Shown here piece by piece: positions 10,497-17,945 of a stretch of 64,000 nt of DNA. The notes under the pieces are model-generated. The model saw only the letters and a program-made list of their open reading frames with translations, ran no database searches and was not told where the DNA came from. The DNA is from an uncultured Glaciecola sp. (GTDB taxonomy: Bacteria > Pseudomonadota > Gammaproteobacteria > Enterobacterales > Alteromonadaceae). Positions within the stretch are counted from its first letter, which is position 1, and the number at the start of each line of letters is the position of its first letter. Position numbers and translations under genes: made by a program. The stretch covers positions 124,001 to 188,000 of the forward strand of contig CANMCE010000001.1 of the NCBI GenBank assembly GCA_947496235.1, written 5' to 3'.

Positions 10497-11243
10497 ATGA
10501 AAAACATAGGTAAAAACCCCGAAAAAGATCAGCTTTTTGCTGCTCAACGCGAAAATATCGCACCATTTAGCTTTGATCAAAACGTTGCTGACGTTTTTCC
10601 CGATATGATCAATAGGTCTGTTCCAGGATACCAAAAGATAATTTCAACCATTCCTGAAATTATAGCTTCCCATTTGAAAAACACATCGATAATTTACGAT
10701 ATTGGATGCTCATTGGGAGCAACCTCTTTGGCCATTGCAAAAAGATTTAATCAATCATCAATACAAATTAAAGCATTAGATTATTCAGAAGCTATGGTTG
10801 AACGCTGTAAAAAGAATATTTCTGCTTGGAATTTTAATCATCATATTGAAGTCATTTATGCTGATGTAACAAAAGTTACAATAGCGCCCTGTGATGCAAT
10901 AATCATGAATTTTACTTTGCAATTTATCTCTCCAAATTTACGTCAAGATGTGATCGACAAATTATATAGCGCTTTAAATCCGGGAGGTATACTAGTCGTA
11001 AGTGAAAAACTTTCGTTCAAGGATACTTTAGTAAACAACAAGCTAATAGAAATTCATCATGAATTTAAACGTCAAAATGGTTATTCTGATCTAGAAATAA
11101 GCCAAAAGCGCACAGCTCTTGAAAATGTAATGATTACAGATAATCAAGATGGTCATTACGCACGCTTCAAGCAGGCAGGATTTTCTCATTATGCAAGCTG
11201 GTACCAAAATTTAAATTTTGCATCCATGTTTGCAATAAAATAA
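10497..11243 (+). CDS. cmoA: Carboxy-S-adenosyl-L-methionine synthase
   Basis: CmoA makes carboxy-SAM from SAM and prephenate for modification of uridine 34 in tRNA (cmo5U). The 248-residue length matches the family. A class I methyltransferase fold is evident: IIYDIGCSLGATSLAIAKRF at about 62-81 binds SAM, ALDYSEAMVERC follows, and then NFTLQFI. The gene lies 26 bp upstream of cmoB on the same strand, the usual pair. The Shine-Dalgarno sequence is weak (AAGAAA). Confidence 0.97.
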   Translation: MKNIGKNPEKDQLFAAQRENIAPFSFDQNVADVFPDMINRSVPGYQKIISTIPEIIASHLKNTSIIYDIGCSLGATSLAIAKRFNQSSIQIKALDYSEAMVERCKKNISAWNFNHHIEVIYADVTKVTIAPCDAIIMNFTLQFISPNLRQDVIDKLYSALNPGGILVVSEKLSFKDTLVNNKLIEIHHEFKRQNGYSDLEISQKRTALENVMITDNQDGHYARFKQAGFSHYASWYQNLNFASMFAIK

Positions 11244-11268
11244 ACATAAAAAAGGCTGACGAATTACT

Positions 11269-12243
11269 GTGAATTTTGATCAATGGACAACTGATTTTTA
11301 TAAAGCAATTTTAAATACGCCTTTGCAAAAACATTTAGCAGCTTTTGTTGAATTAGCTCAAGAATGGCAGTCGGCGACGCATCACGACAAACAAAAAGTT
11401 TGGCAAAAACAAATTTTAAAACTCCCTTCTTCTATACCTTTTAAAACTGAAATTGGAAATACCATTCAGATTGGCGATGAAGAAACTTTGACCGTCAATG
11501 AAAAGAAAAAGATCAGCGCTATATTGCAGCAATTTATGCCATGGCGAAAAGGACCATTTAACTTTTTTGGTGTTCAAATAGACACGGAATGGCGCTCAGA
11601 TTGGAAATGGCAAAGAGTCTTGCCACATATTCAATCATTGGCAAACAAGCGTGTCCTTGATGTTGGTTGTGGGAGTGGTTACCACCTTTGGCGTATGCAT
11701 CAAGAGCAAGCAGAACAAGTCATAGGAATAGACCCAACCACTTTATTTTTCTACCAATTTCATTGTGTAAAGCGTTACCTACCAAATGCCAACGTACATT
11801 TTTTGCCATTAGGAATAGAACAGTTACCCGCTACCAAAGCATTTGATACCCTTTTTTCTATGGGCGTGCTGTATCACCGATTAGATCCTCTGCTATTTTT
11901 AAAACAACTTAAGCAGCAGTTAGTCAAAGGGGGCGAGCTAGTATTAGAGACCTTAGTTATTGCAGGTGATGACCAGACGGTTCTACTGCCAAGTGACAGA
12001 TATGCGCAAATGGGCAATGTGTATTTCATTCCAAGTAGTTTAGCTATGATAAAGTGGTTACAGAAAGTTGGTTTTTCCAATGTCAGGCTAGTAGATGAAA
12101 ATGATACTACTATCGAAGAACAACGAACGACTGAATGGATGCCAAACCATTCGCTAATAGACTTTTTAGATCCTCAAGATCATAAGAAAACCATTGAGGG
12201 TTATCCAGCGCCAAGAAGAGCCACTTTTATTGCGACAGCCTAA
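11269..12243 (+). CDS. cmoB: tRNA U34 carboxymethyltransferase
   Basis: CmoB transfers the carboxymethyl group of carboxy-SAM to 5-hydroxyuridine 34 of tRNA, giving cmo5U, which widens wobble decoding. At 324 residues it is almost identical in length to E. coli CmoB. DVGCGSGYHLWRM near residue 130 is the cofactor-binding loop; SDWKWQRVLPHI and SMGVLYHRLDPL are characteristic of the family. The start is GTG. It is probably cotranscribed with cmoA. Confidence 0.97.
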   Translation: MNFDQWTTDFYKAILNTPLQKHLAAFVELAQEWQSATHHDKQKVWQKQILKLPSSIPFKTEIGNTIQIGDEETLTVNEKKKISAILQQFMPWRKGPFNFFGVQIDTEWRSDWKWQRVLPHIQSLANKRVLDVGCGSGYHLWRMHQEQAEQVIGIDPTTLFFYQFHCVKRYLPNANVHFLPLGIEQLPATKAFDTLFSMGVLYHRLDPLLFLKQLKQQLVKGGELVLETLVIAGDDQTVLLPSDRYAQMGNVYFIPSSLAMIKWLQKVGFSNVRLVDENDTTIEEQRTTEWMPNHSLIDFLDPQDHKKTIEGYPAPRRATFIATA

Positions 12244-12364
12244 TTATGTTGTCCGTTTGAATTGTGAATTGGATTTCTGGCACGATATCTGTAGTTGTTA
12301 ACCTAAAAAGACAAAACAATAGCTTGAAATAGTTGTATATGAAGCCGCAAGAGGTAAAAGCTGA

Positions 12365-13276
12365 ATGCAGCAAGATGAGCAAGATTCAATATTGGCGCAG
12401 TTTAAAGAGCAGTTTACGTCAGAACACAAACTTACTAACAGTTACTGGCAAAGCGCACTAAAATGGTTCAAACCACTCGCTGATGACATTATTTCGCACC
12501 ATAAAAAGGCGAAAAGACCACTATTTGTGGGCGTAAATGGTGCTCAAGGTTCGGGAAAATCAACATTAACTGATTTTCTCGTTGGCTATTTCAATCAAGT
12601 CCAAAAAGTATCAAGCGTTGGCTTTTCCATCGACGATTTTTATTTCAGTAAAGAGATACGCGCTGCCTTAAGTGAACAAGTTCACCCTCTGCTTCACACT
12701 CGCGGAGTACCAGGAACTCATAATGCAGTAATGTTAAATAAAGTATTAAATAAACTAGCCTTAGGGCAAAGTTGCATCATACCCAAATTTGATAAAGCGA
12801 ATGACGATTTATATCCAGAAGAAGATTGGACGCCAATAGAAGAACCTAAAGATATTATTGTATTTGAAGGATGGTGTGTGGGTAGTAAATCCGCCGAAAA
12901 TGATACCTTATCTGTTGCCGTCAATCCGCTCGAAACTGAACATGATCCTGACGGTAGTTGGCGTGGCTATGTGAATCAACAACTGTTACAAAAGTACGAG
13001 CCTATTTTTGCACGGCTCGATTTACTCGTAATGTTAAAAGCACCTAGTTTTAATACCGTGTACTCGTGGCGTTTAGAACAAGAGCACAAGCTCAAACAAA
13101 AATTAGCGGCTTCTGGTATTACAGGCAACATTGGTATGACGGATGAAGAAATAAAAACCTTTATCCAGTATTACCAACGTATCACTGAGCATAATTTACA
13201 TTATTTACCGGCTGATTGTGATTATGTGTTTTCGCTGGATGAGAAAAGAAGTATTACTCAATGTATAAAAAAATAA
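12365..13276 (+). CDS. D-glycerate kinase, GLYK/Tda10-type P-loop kinase
   Basis: A 303-residue P-loop kinase of the family that includes plant D-glycerate 3-kinase and the uridine kinase/phosphoribulokinase fold. The Walker A motif is GAQGSGKS at residues 59-66; SIDDFYFS near 90 and HTRGVPGTHN near 115 are typical of this family, and FEGWCVG near 168 follows. It is the first gene of a four-gene operon whose last gene should release D-glycerate from glucosylglycerate. The inferred role is therefore to return glycerate to 3-phosphoglycerate, the acceptor used by the third gene. It overlaps the next gene by 16 bp. Assay would be needed to tell 3- from 2-phosphorylation. Confidence 0.8.
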   Translation: MQQDEQDSILAQFKEQFTSEHKLTNSYWQSALKWFKPLADDIISHHKKAKRPLFVGVNGAQGSGKSTLTDFLVGYFNQVQKVSSVGFSIDDFYFSKEIRAALSEQVHPLLHTRGVPGTHNAVMLNKVLNKLALGQSCIIPKFDKANDDLYPEEDWTPIEEPKDIIVFEGWCVGSKSAENDTLSVAVNPLETEHDPDGSWRGYVNQQLLQKYEPIFARLDLLVMLKAPSFNTVYSWRLEQEHKLKQKLAASGITGNIGMTDEEIKTFIQYYQRITEHNLHYLPADCDYVFSLDEKRSITQCIKK

Positions 13277-14118
13277 CAAAAAATAAAATCCCACTAATAT
13301 TTACAGATATGGATGGGACACTACTCGATCATTTTAGTTATTCGTTTGACGCCGCTAAACCTTGTATTAGTGCTTTACAGTCTTTGAATATCCCTATTAT
13401 TCCAAACACCAGTAAAACGTCTAGTGAAGTGAAACAGTTGATGACGGAGATAGGTTTAAAAGGGCCTTTAATAGTAGAAAATGGCGCAGCCGTACTCATG
13501 CCAATTGACTTTTTACCCAAAAAACCCAAAGGCGCTGTCTGGGAAGGTGGACACTGGGTTAAGAGCTTTGCCAACAAACGGCAACATTTTAAAGCTATGA
13601 TAGACAAATTAAGTAAAGAGTTTGATGGCGAATTTGAAACCTTTTCATCTATGTCTATCAATCGTATCATGGAAGTTACCGGATTAAGCCAAGAAAATGC
13701 GACCTTGGCATCAACGCGTGAATTTGGTGAGCCTGTTAATTGGTTAGGCAGTGAGGAGCGAAGAGAAGAATTTATCAATCGGCTCAATGCAATGGGCGCA
13801 AAACCTGTATTAGGAGGAAGGTTTCTCCATATCTGCGGAAATTGTAGCAAAGGAAGAGCGTTGAAATGGTTAACCAGCGAATATCAACGCCAGTTTCCAG
13901 AAACAAAAGTAACAAGCGTAGCATTAGGAGATGGCCCCAACGATATTGCAATGCTAGAAGTTGCTGATTACGCCGTAATTGTCGCGTCGCCAGTGAATCC
14001 GCCGCCTATATTACAAAGAACAAATAGAACAATAAACACACAACATCATGGTCCAGAAGGCTGGACTGAAGCACTTGAATATTTAATTCCAAGGCTTGTT
14101 GAAAAAGAGGAAAGCTAA
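13261..14118 (+). CDS. Glucosyl/mannosyl-3-phosphoglycerate phosphatase (HAD-IIB)
   Basis: This HAD-superfamily phosphatase of the mannosyl-3-phosphoglycerate phosphatase/YedP family has 285 residues. Motif I is TDMDGT with D16 as nucleophile and D18 as acid; motif II lies in IIPNTSKTSSEV and motif IV is GDGPND with D224 and D228. IVENGAAV is a hallmark of the family. It sits between a glycerate kinase and a glucosyl-3-phosphoglycerate synthase, so the likely substrate is glucosyl-3-phosphoglycerate, giving glucosylglycerate. Mannosyl substrate remains possible from sequence alone. TAA directly abuts the next ATG. Confidence 0.85.
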   Translation: MYKKITKNKIPLIFTDMDGTLLDHFSYSFDAAKPCISALQSLNIPIIPNTSKTSSEVKQLMTEIGLKGPLIVENGAAVLMPIDFLPKKPKGAVWEGGHWVKSFANKRQHFKAMIDKLSKEFDGEFETFSSMSINRIMEVTGLSQENATLASTREFGEPVNWLGSEERREEFINRLNAMGAKPVLGGRFLHICGNCSKGRALKWLTSEYQRQFPETKVTSVALGDGPNDIAMLEVADYAVIVASPVNPPPILQRTNRTINTQHHGPEGWTEALEYLIPRLVEKEES

Positions 14119-15345
14119 ATGGCTGATTTTTACCAAAATGGTATTGTAACTACACTGCATAATTTGGAATCTCGCGGTATTGATGATTTAGAACATGAAT
14201 TAGTGAAATTTTCGAAACACCGCCCTCTCGGTCTAATTCTCCCTTCTCTTTTTTCTGAATTAGAAGGTGATGCATTACCTTCAATTATTAAACAAATAAA
14301 AGACGTCCCCTATTTAAATCAGATTGTAATAGGCTTAGACAGAGCCGATGAAAGCCAATATAAACACGCACTTAAATTTTTCGGCGAATTGCAACAACCG
14401 CACAGAGTACTTTGGAACGATGGTCCTCGATTAAAAGCTCTTGACGAAGAACTTCAACATTTGGGCGTTGCACCGACGGAAATGGGTAAAGGACGAAACG
14501 TTTGGTATTGTATGGGCTACGTATTAGCAGCAGGTAAAGTAGAAAGTGTTGCTTTGCATGACTGTGACATAGTTACTTATGATAGATCACTACTGGCTAG
14601 GCTTATCTATCCAGTAGCAAATCCGCAGTTTAACTACGAGTTTTGCAAAGGGTTTTACGCGCGAATTGCCGACGGCAAGATTAACGGTAGAGTCTCCCGT
14701 TTATTAGTTACACCTCTGCTTAGAGCGCTTAAAAATACCGTTGGAAACAGTGATTATTTAGAGTTTATGGACAGTTTCCGTTACCCTCTGGCAGGTGAAT
14801 TTTCGTTCCGAAAAGATGTATTAAACGATATTCGAATTCCAAGTGATTGGGGATTAGAAATTGGCGTATTGTCTGAAATGCACAGAAATTATTCTCATAA
14901 TCGCCTGTGTCAGGCAGACATAGCGCATATCTATGATCATAAACATCAAGATTTGTCGTTGAATAATGATCAAGGTGGTTTATCAAAGATGTCAATTGAC
15001 ATTACCAAAGCTTTGTTTAGAAAATTAGCGACTCAGGGCACTATATTTACCACAGAAACCTTTAGAAGTATTAAGGCCGCCTATTTTAGAATTGCTTTAG
15101 ATTTTATCGAAACCTATCACAACGACGCTGTAATGAATGGACTATCTGTAGATATTCATTCAGAAGAAAAAGCAGTAGAAATGTTTGCACAGAATATAAT
15201 GAAAGCGGGCACAAGCTTTCTAGAAAATCCTATGGAAACGCCTTTTATACCAAGTTGGAACCGCGTAATCAGTGCTAAACCTGATGTACTGTCCTGCTTG
15301 AAGGAGGCCGTTGAATTAGACGTGGAAGAATTTTCGGGAAGCTAA
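14119..15345 (+). CDS. gpgS: Glucosyl-3-phosphoglycerate synthase (GT81)
   Basis: GpgS joins glucose from an NDP-glucose donor to 3-phosphoglycerate, the committed step of glucosylglycerate synthesis. The 408-residue protein has a GT-A fold: LGLILPSLFSEL near the N-terminus, QIVIGLDRAD, and a DCD metal motif at 148-150 (HDCDIVTYDR). FRYPLAGEFSF and WGLEIGVLSEMHR near 215-255 are typical of GT81 enzymes. A GAGGAAA Shine-Dalgarno lies 5 bases before the ATG. It is the third gene of the operon, after the matching phosphatase. Confidence 0.88.
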   Translation: MADFYQNGIVTTLHNLESRGIDDLEHELVKFSKHRPLGLILPSLFSELEGDALPSIIKQIKDVPYLNQIVIGLDRADESQYKHALKFFGELQQPHRVLWNDGPRLKALDEELQHLGVAPTEMGKGRNVWYCMGYVLAAGKVESVALHDCDIVTYDRSLLARLIYPVANPQFNYEFCKGFYARIADGKINGRVSRLLVTPLLRALKNTVGNSDYLEFMDSFRYPLAGEFSFRKDVLNDIRIPSDWGLEIGVLSEMHRNYSHNRLCQADIAHIYDHKHQDLSLNNDQGGLSKMSIDITKALFRKLATQGTIFTTETFRSIKAAYFRIALDFIETYHNDAVMNGLSVDIHSEEKAVEMFAQNIMKAGTSFLENPMETPFIPSWNRVISAKPDVLSCLKEAVELDVEEFSGS

Positions 15346-15348
15346 TAC

Positions 15349-17139
15349 ATGCAAGAAGAATTTGACAACCTTGTTGATAAAATCGTTCGACATTTAGAGT
15401 TTATCTACGCTGAAGTAGAGCTCGAAAAAGACTACCTGACAGTGGCTAAAGAACTGTTAGATGCCATGCGTTTGACCCCGGTTAACATGCAAACCCCTAC
15501 CCCACATAGTAACTTGTGGGATGAAAAAGATGTGGTGTTAATCACATACGGTGACAGCGTATATGAACCCGCTCCAGAATTGGTAGAGGCTCCTTTACGG
15601 CCACCTCTGAAAACGCTTTCATCGTTTTTACATAAATATTGTATTAACGCTATCAGTCATGTTCATGTGTTGCCCTTTTTTCCCTACAGTTCAGATGATG
15701 GATTTTCGGTAATTGATTATTCAACGGTGAATCAAGGTTTAGGAGATTGGTCACATATTGAGAGTATATCTTCTGACTTTGGTTTAATGGCTGACCTTGT
15801 TATCAATCATTGTTCGTCAAGAAGCGCTTGGTTTCAGCAGTTTATTAATGATCAACCGCCAGGTAACAAGTACTTTTATACCGCGTCTCCTGATGAAGAT
15901 TTATCCATGGTGACTCGACCTAGAACCTCTCCTTTATTAAGAGAAACTAAAACTCCTGACGATGTAAAACACGTGTGGTGTACCTTCAGTCATGACCAGG
16001 TCGATTTCGACTTTTCAAATCCAGACGTGTTAGTGGCTTTCGCGAAAATTATTCGCCTCTATATGGACAAGGGTACCAAGATATTTAGATTCGATGCTAT
16101 CGCCTTTCTTTGGAAAAAACTGAATACCAGTTGTATTAACTTACCAGAGACACATGAAGCAGTACGTTTATTACGCACACTCATCGAATATGCTGATAAT
16201 AAAGTATTGATCATTACTGAAACGAACATCCCCAACAGAGAAAATCTGACCTATTTCGGTAATGCCAACGAAGCCCATGGTATATACAACTTCTCTTTAC
16301 CGCCTTTATTGGTAAACACACTTTTAACCGGCAACTGTACCTATCTTAAAAATTGGATGATGAGTATGCCGCCGGCTCAAAACGGTACCTTCTATTTCAA
16401 CTTTATTGCGTCTCATGATGGAATAGGACTGCGCCCCGCAGAAGGCTTATTAGATGAAAGTGAAATTCGACAACTCACTGACTGCGTTTTAGATTTTGGC
16501 GGAAAAATTTCGTGGCGTACCTTGCCTGATGGCACGCAAAAACCTTATGAAATGAACATAGCACTCATTGATGCCCTGAAAGGTACGATTCATGGTGAAG
16601 ATGAATGGCAATTGGAGCGATTTATTTGTGCTCACGCTATAATGTTCGGTTTAGAAGGTATTCCGGGTCTATACATCCATAGTTTACTTGGCACCACCAA
16701 TGATTACGAGCGTGTTTCTAATACAGGCCAGAATCGAGGTATTAATCGCCATAGATGGGAATATCCACTACTAAAAAGTGCCCTTGATAATGTGAATACC
16801 ATTCATCACAGAGTGTTAACTAAACTCACTCAATTATTGCATTTACGTCGTGCTCAACGAGCTTTCCATCCGAATGCAATTCAATTTACTTTGCAACTAG
16901 GTGAAAAGGTCTTTGGATATTGGCGTCAGTCGTTGGATAGAAAACAAAGTATTTTCTGTATTTCGAATATCACTACTGAAGAAATTGCGATTAACCTTTC
17001 AGACATTAACCTTATTGGCACAGATGATTGGATAGACCTTATTACCCAAGAAACGGTTTCAGTTGATCAAGTTTGTTTAAACCTACAACCGTACCAGACT
17101 ATGTGGATATCCAACGTATTTGAGAAAAAGAGCGCATAA
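15349..17139 (+). CDS. GH13_18 sugar phosphorylase, probable glucosylglycerate phosphorylase
   Basis: This 596-residue sucrose-phosphorylase-type enzyme has the GH13 triad in place: nucleophile D249 in FRFDAIAFLWK, acid/base E291 in ITETNIPN and transition-state D357 in ASHDGIGLRP. HVLPFFPYSSDDGFSVIDY near residues 105-123 is typical of subfamily 18. Characterised members cleave sucrose, glucosylglycerol, sucrose 6-phosphate or glucosylglycerate. Its place beside gpgS and a glycerate kinase points to glucosylglycerate plus phosphate giving glucose 1-phosphate and D-glycerate, as in E. coli YcjM. It is longer than sucrose phosphorylase (~490-505), with an N-terminal extension. The substrate is inferred from context. 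Confidence 0.8.
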   Translation: MQEEFDNLVDKIVRHLEFIYAEVELEKDYLTVAKELLDAMRLTPVNMQTPTPHSNLWDEKDVVLITYGDSVYEPAPELVEAPLRPPLKTLSSFLHKYCINAISHVHVLPFFPYSSDDGFSVIDYSTVNQGLGDWSHIESISSDFGLMADLVINHCSSRSAWFQQFINDQPPGNKYFYTASPDEDLSMVTRPRTSPLLRETKTPDDVKHVWCTFSHDQVDFDFSNPDVLVAFAKIIRLYMDKGTKIFRFDAIAFLWKKLNTSCINLPETHEAVRLLRTLIEYADNKVLIITETNIPNRENLTYFGNANEAHGIYNFSLPPLLVNTLLTGNCTYLKNWMMSMPPAQNGTFYFNFIASHDGIGLRPAEGLLDESEIRQLTDCVLDFGGKISWRTLPDGTQKPYEMNIALIDALKGTIHGEDEWQLERFICAHAIMFGLEGIPGLYIHSLLGTTNDYERVSNTGQNRGINRHRWEYPLLKSALDNVNTIHHRVLTKLTQLLHLRRAQRAFHPNAIQFTLQLGEKVFGYWRQSLDRKQSIFCISNITTEEIAINLSDINLIGTDDWIDLITQETVSVDQVCLNLQPYQTMWISNVFEKKSA

Positions 17140-17150
17140 GCGCTCTTTTT
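17125..17150 (+). terminator. Terminator of the glucosylglycerate operon
   Basis: A perfect 10-bp stem (AAAAAGAGCG at 17125-17134 with CGCTCTTTTT at 17141-17150), a 6-base loop and a run of Ts. The stop codon of the phosphorylase lies in the loop. It may also stop the converging membrane-protein gene. Confidence 0.88.
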
Positions 17151-17945
17151 TCATTCAAATTTTCTTTCTCTCTTGGTTTCTATGGTATCTATATAACCAT
17201 GCCAAGAAGCGTAACCAATAATTGGCATTATGACTAAAAACGCCACAAAGTAAGTCACAAAGCCCAACAGAACCGAAAAGGATATGACTAAAGCCCAAAC
17301 AAACATGGGTAACTTATTTTGCCAAACCGCGTTCATACTGGTTAATATCGCAGTAGCGATATCCACTTTTCTCTCAAGAAGAATCGGCTGTGTAAATGCG
17401 CTGATAAAAAATACCACTGTAGTGAAGGCTATACCTACTAATGTTCCAACAATGAGAAATGGCCATAGGTTAGCGAGGTTCGGATCTAGATAGCTTGGAT
17501 AGAGCGCATGAATAATAGACGCAACTCTCAACCAAAATATCATCAGAATCATTAATATTAAGCCAAAGCCCCACTCGTTAACCGCATTACGTGACATTGC
17601 TTTTAACGAATGGCGAAAACTTGGCTTTTTACCTTTTTCAAATTGCCAAGATACATCGTACAAACCGGCAGCCAAATATGGGCCAATTAACATAAAGCAC
17701 ACCATGGCAGGAAAGATAACTAGATACCAAGCTGTACTTTTTACAAGAAAATAGATAGACAGTGGTAACAGGGTGAAAATTAAACCGTAGGCTAAACTAA
17801 TCATCTTAGCATTTATAAAATCGTTGATCGCTAAGGATATCCACTTAAAACAACTTAAGGTGTCCAGTTCTTTACTCGGGATAACGCGAGCTATATTACT
17901 TTGAGTAATCGCATTTTCGCTGGCGTGTTCAATTTTTTCTGACAT
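17151..17945 (-). CDS. DUF2189 family integral membrane protein
   Basis: A 264-residue protein of unknown function with about six membrane segments after a ~35-residue polar N-terminus. LSCFKWISLAINDF followed by SLAYGLIFTLLP is typical of the DUF2189 family, as is LAAGLYDVSWQFEKGKKP in the middle. It is a single gene convergent on the glucosylglycerate operon, with the shared hairpin between them. No motif points to a transport substrate or enzyme activity. Confidence 0.75.
   Translation of the reverse strand: MSEKIEHASENAITQSNIARVIPSKELDTLSCFKWISLAINDFINAKMISLAYGLIFTLLPLSIYFLVKSTAWYLVIFPAMVCFMLIGPYLAAGLYDVSWQFEKGKKPSFRHSLKAMSRNAVNEWGFGLILMILMIFWLRVASIIHALYPSYLDPNLANLWPFLIVGTLVGIAFTTVVFFISAFTQPILLERKVDIATAILTSMNAVWQNKLPMFVWALVISFSVLLGFVTYFVAFLVIMPIIGYASWHGYIDTIETKRERKFE

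Follow-up and report, generated by a model that had tools for sequence, protein, structure and literature searches.

How would a bacterium control an operon that encodes both the synthesis and the breakdown of one compound? This question is raised by four genes from an uncultured Glaciecola sp. (Gammaproteobacteria; Alteromonadaceae), on the forward strand of a 64,000-nucleotide stretch of contig CANMCE010000001.1 (the window; positions are counted from its first letter). The four open reading frames lie within 12365-17139. They appear to encode a glycerate kinase of the GLYK type (12365-13276, 303 amino acids); a glucosyl- or mannosyl-3-phosphoglycerate phosphatase of the HAD-IIB class and the MPGP family (13261-14118, 285 amino acids); a glucosyl-3-phosphoglycerate synthase-like glycosyltransferase of the long GpgS type (14119-15345, 408 amino acids, 46 kDa); and a 2-O-glucosylglycerate phosphorylase from family GH13_18 (15349-17139, 596 amino acids). 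A preliminary description had proposed that these proteins make and recycle glucosylglycerate, with phosphate or salt as the possible control.

We think it quite likely that the four genes do make and recycle glucosylglycerate, that they are transcribed with sigma-54 (RpoN), and that NtrC induces them in many Gammaproteobacteria. Judging from the families of the proteins, the synthase would join glucose (from nucleoside diphosphate glucose) to 3-phosphoglycerate, and the phosphatase would then release glucosylglycerate. The phosphorylase and phosphate would split glucosylglycerate into glucose 1-phosphate and D-glycerate, and the kinase would turn glycerate back into phosphoglycerate. This loop agrees with the signature residues of the proteins, with published characterized relatives, and with conserved gene order. 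The product would be a compatible solute that is nitrogen-free and negatively charged. RNA polymerase with sigma-54 most likely transcribes the operon, and in many Gammaproteobacteria, NtrC would switch it on when nitrogen is short. Glucosylglycerate would then substitute for glutamate as the counter-ion of potassium, and it would be a store of carbon to be mobilized once nitrogen returns. Since both arms would be on one promoter, the net direction probably depends on metabolite levels: phosphate, glucose 1-phosphate, and 3-phosphoglycerate, along with salt, would act after transcription.

A sigma-54-like site and possible nitrogen control

In an alignment of the gap between the kinase gene and the methyltransferase gene before it (presumably cmoB), one block was conserved, TTGGCAY-N5-TTG, and the remaining intergenic DNA aligned poorly. 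This block reads as the -24/-12 element of a sigma-54 promoter. Sigma-54 promoters have the GG of the -24 element and the G of the -12 element at a fixed spacing. The promoter-like site in the window, TGGCACGATATCTGT (12278-12292, forward strand), has all of these, and its first base is 87 nucleotides 5' of the first start codon. We scored sites against the fixed consensus TGGCACRNNNNTTGC, with the GG and the -12 G being mandatory and with a threshold of 9 of 11 letters; the site in the window matches at 9. The pattern TGGCACRNNNNYTGY matches only once in the window, at this site, where 0.23 matches were expected and 20 of 100 shuffles had at least one match. As controls, pspA of E. coli scored 10 of 11 and ycjM scored 3.

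The site is conserved in relatives of the operon. We compared the window to named loci, which are the best 80 of at least 574 relatives and carry the names of gammaproteobacterial genera or bins in their titles. (These loci are kin, so small p-values overstate their independence.) We took up to 300 bp upstream of the operon from the window and from every named locus but one, which has under 100 bases there. Of these 80 regions, 67 had sites scoring at least 9, as compared to 3.8% of shuffles and 3 of 80 regions on the opposite strand. Among the loci outside of the alignments that led us to the site, 46 of 58 reach 9 (40 of 50 after similar ones were removed), but these 58 still include kin of the aligned loci. 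Similarly, with 350-bp regions (omitting two named loci with less sequence upstream), the site was found for 56 of 66 non-redundant operons and for 42 of 596 other genes from the same loci. Going by the families in the record titles, the site is present in 34 of 35 Alteromonadaceae and in 33 of 45 others (4.8% of shuffles outside the Alteromonadaceae). Based on this conservation, the operon is probably controlled by RpoN, and the conserved sigma-54 site upstream of it looks new.

The enhancer sites of NtrC have the consensus TGCAC-N7-GTGCA. Palindromes that match at least 9 of its 10 letters were found in 25 of 79 operon regions; in the non-redundant comparison, they were found in 19 of 66 operon regions versus 13 of 596 controls. 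Perfect palindromes were present in 6 of 79 operon regions versus 2 of 596 controls. Just over half of the regions from outside the Alteromonadaceae (23 of 45) have a palindrome that scores at least 9. Where the palindrome is upstream of the sigma-54 site, the spacing is 158-159 bp in four Shewanella, 103-135 bp in five Colwelliaceae, and 21-230 bp in the rest. As judged from these sites, control of the operon by NtrC is well supported outside the Alteromonadaceae, and the operon is probably regulated by nitrogen at least in other Gammaproteobacteria.

A role in nitrogen stress would fit with published physiology, as far as the available parts of the papers go. Glucosylglycerate accumulates in nitrogen-limited mycobacteria and is mobilized on recovery (PMC6608630), and in Rhodopirellula depleted of nitrogen, a related compound, mannosylglucosylglycerate, increased 25-fold. 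Glucosylglycerate is also described as being able to replace glutamate as a counter-ion and as an osmolyte under salt stress. In the open-licence literature, we did not find a glucosylglycerate operon within an NtrC/RpoN regulon; in the available part of one paper on NtrC (PMC3870243), glucosylglycerate is present only as a cited paper.

Several observations weigh against this account. Thirteen of the 80 upstream regions score under 9: these are from the nearest named relative of the window (L035, which scores 8), all five Pseudoalteromonas, both Methylophaga, and five others. Copies of the synthesis arm from Alphaproteobacteria and Psychrobacter have no good site (7, 5, and 5 of 11). The window has no NtrC-type site upstream of the operon (the best scores 6 of 10), and only two of 34 Alteromonadaceae have one that scores at least 9, both of them downstream of the sigma-54 site. 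With no such site in the window and few in its family, the case for nitrogen control in this organism comes down to the sigma-54 site, and sigma-54 also serves other activators. Even among the 25 regions with NtrC-type sites, 13 have the palindrome upstream of a sigma-54 site that scores at least 9, while 7 have it downstream and 5 have a weak sigma-54 site. (When the phosphorylase gene lies on the opposite strand, its own upstream region can be scored separately: L022 and L024 both reach 10 of 11, and the two alphaproteobacterial copies, with 7 and 5 for the synthesis arm, reach 9 and 6 for the phosphorylase.)

Given these observations, we considered whether the same enzymes and product might belong to an osmotic-stress operon with a sigma-70 or sigma-S promoter, with the sigma-54-like site being unused in this organism. 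This would account for the missing NtrC-type site and for the score of L035, it would suit a solute that is also described as a salt osmolyte, and about 4% of shuffled upstream regions have a 9 of 11 site by chance. But it would not explain why 67 of 80 regions retain the site amid intergenic DNA that otherwise aligns poorly, and candidate sigma-70 promoters are at the level of shuffles (15 versus a mean of 14.7). We consider the osmotic explanation to be unlikely, and we view the conserved sigma-54 site as a better lead for regulation than phosphate or salt. The site hints that a shortage of nitrogen, and not only salt, may turn the operon on. Together with the NtrC-type sites in several families, it would connect the nitrogen-stress regulon to an osmolyte that contains no nitrogen, in seas where nitrogen is scarce.

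The enzymes and their substrates

The phosphorylase matches PF00128 (69.7 bits; cut-off 22) and contains the motifs FRFDAIAF (residue 246), TETN (290), SHDGIG (355), and KPYEMN (398). Its best relatives among solved structures are glucosylglycerol and sucrose phosphorylases. According to the available part of a study of these enzymes, strict glucosylglycerate phosphorylases (GGaP) are marked by (T/S)ETN in strand beta5 and by a Glu that replaces a Gln in loop A (PMC7178133). The protein from the window has both: TETN and, within KPYEMN, a Glu at the aligned position where sucrose and glucosylglycerol phosphorylases have the Gln of their YQ motif. TETN is present in all 80 named relatives. Looser versions of all four catalytic and specificity patterns are present in 79 of them, the exception being L098, whose gene is cut by the end of its contig; stricter versions of two of the patterns are absent from 4 and 10 of the 80. 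Sequence signature, characterized relatives, and gene order all support the annotation of this GH13_18 protein as a 2-O-glucosylglycerate phosphorylase.

The preliminary description had raised the concern that the phosphorylase might act only on sucrose. This is now unlikely. Besides the GGaP signature, loop A is KPYEMN instead of N(L/V)D(I/L/V)YQ, and the protein scores 188 bits against the sucrose phosphorylase model TIGR03852, where the cut-off is 334. Also, the same genome has a separate GH13_18 gene with the sucrose motif NVDLYQ (L005, G000:C2:384473-385606), so the sucrose role is probably filled elsewhere.

Could the phosphorylase mainly run in the synthetic direction, as a second route from glucose 1-phosphate and glycerate to glucosylglycerate? 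High phosphate in cells favors phosphorolysis. The reaction is reversible, and published enzymes bind D-glycerate well (Michaelis constants of 1-5 mM), but a full synthase-phosphatase route is encoded next door and the kinase would drain the glycerate, so we consider this improbable.

The phosphatase is above the cut-offs of two models (TIGR01486, 233 bits versus 164.75; NF001218, 363 versus 362) and has the expected DxDGT and GDxxND motifs (DMDGT at residue 16 and GDGPND at 223). These models do not discriminate between glucosyl and mannosyl esters. The synthase has HDCD at residue 147, as do the synthases from all 80 named loci, and its residues 114-279 are similar to the solved GpgS structures 7p5l and 7pdo (E = 2e-5). 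The catalytic residues that were reported in the preliminary description were found by motif searches in all four proteins.

Glucose, rather than mannose, as the sugar is our inference, and some of the model scores point the other way. The phosphatase barely reaches NF001218, a model whose name refers to the mannosyl compound. The synthase falls short of the two NCBIfam cut-offs for GpgS (365 versus 700 bits for NF040724, GpgS_Meth; 66 versus 262 for NF010496), so we would say that it probably works like GpgS without filing it under either model. If the sugar were mannose, then the synthase and the phosphatase would make mannosylglycerate and the phosphorylase would take mannosylglycerate or another glucoside. 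However, the phosphorylase has the signature of strict glucosylglycerate enzymes and adjoins the synthase-phosphatase pair at all 80 named loci. In some relatives the block also adjoins galU, for UDP-glucose. This gene is annotated at L117:4233-5123 and is above the cut-off of TIGR01099 at L101:11053-11907; other candidates are at L107:11053-11907 and L089:9370-10200 (by sequence pattern) and at L120:7630-8517 (nucleotidyl transferase family). We therefore view mannose as very improbable.

Least probable of all is that the operon scavenges external glucosylglycerate (from picocyanobacteria, for instance) while the synthase pair serves another purpose: E. coli ycjM does lie in a transporter operon, and the Prochlorococcus operon includes a transporter according to the available part of PMC11631117, but neither the four genes nor those directly beside them encode a transporter, and synthase, phosphatase, and phosphorylase occur together at 80 of 80 loci.

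Gene order, glycerate kinases, and fusions

The preliminary description had the four genes in a block on one strand that ends in a terminator, and the layout bears this out. A hairpin with an A-tract/T-tract stem (17125-17150, forward strand) has the stop codon of the last gene within its loop; the stretch that was folded (17115-17165) has a predicted energy of -19.8 kcal/mol (z = -5.86), and none of 200 shuffles did as well. This terminator was not among the hits of a consensus-based scanner. Overlaps or gaps of at most 3 bp had also been described. This holds for the gaps (0 nucleotides between phosphatase and synthase and 3 between synthase and phosphorylase), but the phosphatase gene starts 16 nucleotides before the kinase gene ends (13261-13276), in the -1 frame. 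These two genes also overlap in 42 of the 57 named loci where they are separate. Base composition is steady across the block.

We surveyed gene order in the 80 named loci and in 60 genomes, one of them the window's own and the other 59 from relatives. The phosphatase, synthase, and phosphorylase genes are on one strand in that order at all 80 loci. The kinase is in front at 57, is fused to the phosphatase at 9, and is absent from 14, so it is present at 66. Among the 60 genomes, 34 have the synthase; the same 34 have the phosphatase, and 33 have a phosphorylase above 500 bits (all but G052). From their coordinates, all four genes are adjacent and co-directional in 29 of the 34. Of the five exceptions, G043 and G054 have the phosphorylase on the opposite strand (and G043 also has no nearby kinase), G045 lacks an adjacent kinase, and G051 has its phosphorylase on a different contig; the fifth is G052. 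Because the trio is found at every named locus and the quartet is colinear in 29 of 34 genomes, the grouping is not due to chance.

One of the 29, G003, which is from the same genus, has a synthase in two pieces (L034, G003:C1:1931551-1932767), which could reflect either a real break in the gene or faulty assembly. In two copies from alphaproteobacterial plasmids, the synthase and phosphorylase genes point toward each other. A Psychrobacter plasmid and two further genomes have phosphatase-synthase pairs with no phosphorylase in the stretch that we fetched (L118:3899-6212, L121:3899-6124, and L122:4199-6230). A search for viral copies of the synthase with a single-protein query gave no pattern match.

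The kinase matches PF00485 (26.4 bits; cut-off 22), has the P-loop GAQGSGKS at residue 59, and is similar to solved D-glycerate 3-kinases (6ckg, E = 5e-24; 7xpc, E = 5e-18). The P-loop is present in all 66 kinases from the named loci. Every one of the 14 genomes whose locus lacks the kinase has a glycerate kinase elsewhere: GLYK in 6 (leaving out a 24-bit GLYK match in G065), PF02595 in 7 others and also in one of the 6, and PF13660/MOFRL in one. Among the 60 genomes, all 34 with the synthase have a glycerate kinase (GLYK in 31 and PF02595 in the remaining three), as compared to 14 of 26 without the synthase (Fisher P = 7e-6, uncorrected for kinship). Thus, all 48 synthase-bearing genomes that we checked have a glycerate kinase from one of the three families. 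Of these families, the window's own genome has only the operon kinase. The constant presence of a glycerate kinase with the synthase, whatever its family, looks new.

The kinases of the PF02595 and MOFRL families are 2-kinases, and NCBIfam names the MOFRL type a glycerate 2-kinase. So the conserved feature is the return of glycerate to glycolysis and not a strict 3-phosphoglycerate loop. Also, "self-contained," as the operon had been described, is too strong, as the kinase lies outside of the locus in 14 of 80 cases and is often from another family.

At 9 of the 80 named loci (five Pseudoalteromonas, two Methylophaga, and two Glaciecola HTCC2999), kinase and phosphatase are a single open reading frame, with the kinase first. 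The same fusion is present in G013, G036, G232, and a replicon of Pseudoalteromonas donghaensis. The fusions retain the active-site motifs of both halves and are candidate bifunctional enzymes. In an even draw of 369 genomes from the class, 44 have the phosphatase at E = 1e-25, and it is fused to GLYK in two of these (G013 and G232). A quickly built tree of the synthase (92 rows, of which 11 are fused; the query and window rows were taken from gapped alignment rows) implies five changes in the fusion label, four of them forced by well-supported branches, without distinguishing gain from loss. Overlapping genes make fusion easy, so the fusions need not reflect selection. RefSeq describes one of the fusions (L115:3266-6221, Pseudoalteromonas) just as a "HAD-IIB family hydrolase." In six Pseudoalteromonas records, the synthase is on a large second replicon that is filed as a plasmid.

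Another of the 44 genomes, G348, has a 720-amino acid fusion in the reverse order (L119:3552-5714), with an MPGP-type phosphatase followed by an unrelated glycerate kinase of the MOFRL type. It adjoins genes for an MGS_GT-like glycosyltransferase, which has no solved relatives at E = 0.001, and for a mechanosensitive channel. In 95 genomes around G348, its own included, there is no other case of this fusion. It is possibly part of another glycosylglycerate system. The repeated fusion of kinase and phosphatase, once in reverse with an unrelated kinase, looks new.

In the window, a heptamer (A AAA AAA, 13267-13273) is in the frame of the kinase, directly 5' of its stop codon. Since the phosphatase is encoded in the -1 frame, a slip here would yield a fusion like those of relatives. 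We rejected conserved programmed frameshifting, as this heptamer is in none of the 57 unfused named relatives and any slippery heptamer within the open overlap is in just one (L074).

More tentatively, and with somewhat more doubt than confidence, we suggest that across marine Gammaproteobacteria the loop is an RpoN/NtrC response to nitrogen stress from one sigma-54 promoter, and that kinase-phosphatase coupling (the overlaps and the repeated fusions with two unrelated kinases) balances the two arms.

On the 5' side of the operon are two methyltransferase genes on the same strand (10497-12243), which we take to be cmoA and cmoB; the second matches PF08003/DUF1698. On the 3' side is a DUF2189 gene that is convergent with the operon. 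For 30 of the 80 named loci, the sequence that we fetched includes a relative of cmoB, and in 28 of these it is 46-590 bp 5' of the kinase.

Comparison with known systems

Genes such as glnA are the known NtrC/RpoN-controlled type in Proteobacteria. They have a -24/-12 element, as the operon does, and the palindrome TGCAC-N7-GTGCA, which is found in many relatives of the operon but not in the window.

The phosphorylase resembles the known GGaP (EC 2.4.1.352) from Meiothermus silvanus, Spirochaeta thermophila, and E. coli (YcjM) in belonging to GH13_18 and in having TETN and the loop-A Glu (PMC7178133, available part). It is 38% identical to YcjM, which is listed as characterized. Unlike the genes in the window, E. 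coli ycjM has ABC transporter and kojibiose phosphorylase genes as its neighbors and no synthase. In its available part, the same 2020 review states that such phosphorylases are often accompanied by genes for glycerate kinase, GpgS, or GpgP, and that the metabolic function of GGaP was without experimental confirmation (PMC7178133). In mycobacteria, glucosylglycerate is broken down by a hydrolase, GgH, instead of by a phosphorylase (PMC6608630, as far as the available text goes).

Another close parallel is in Prochlorococcus NATL2A. As described in the available part of PMC11631117, its glucosylglycerate operon also combines synthesis genes with genes that recycle the compound to glucose 1-phosphate and 3-phosphoglycerate, but it includes a putative transporter, which the window's operon does not. 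Between two phenotypes of that strain, the transcripts for synthesis went down and those for recycling went up. Hence the gene set itself is not new: from what is available of these two papers, it is already in print around this phosphorylase (PMC7178133) and as the Prochlorococcus operon (PMC11631117).

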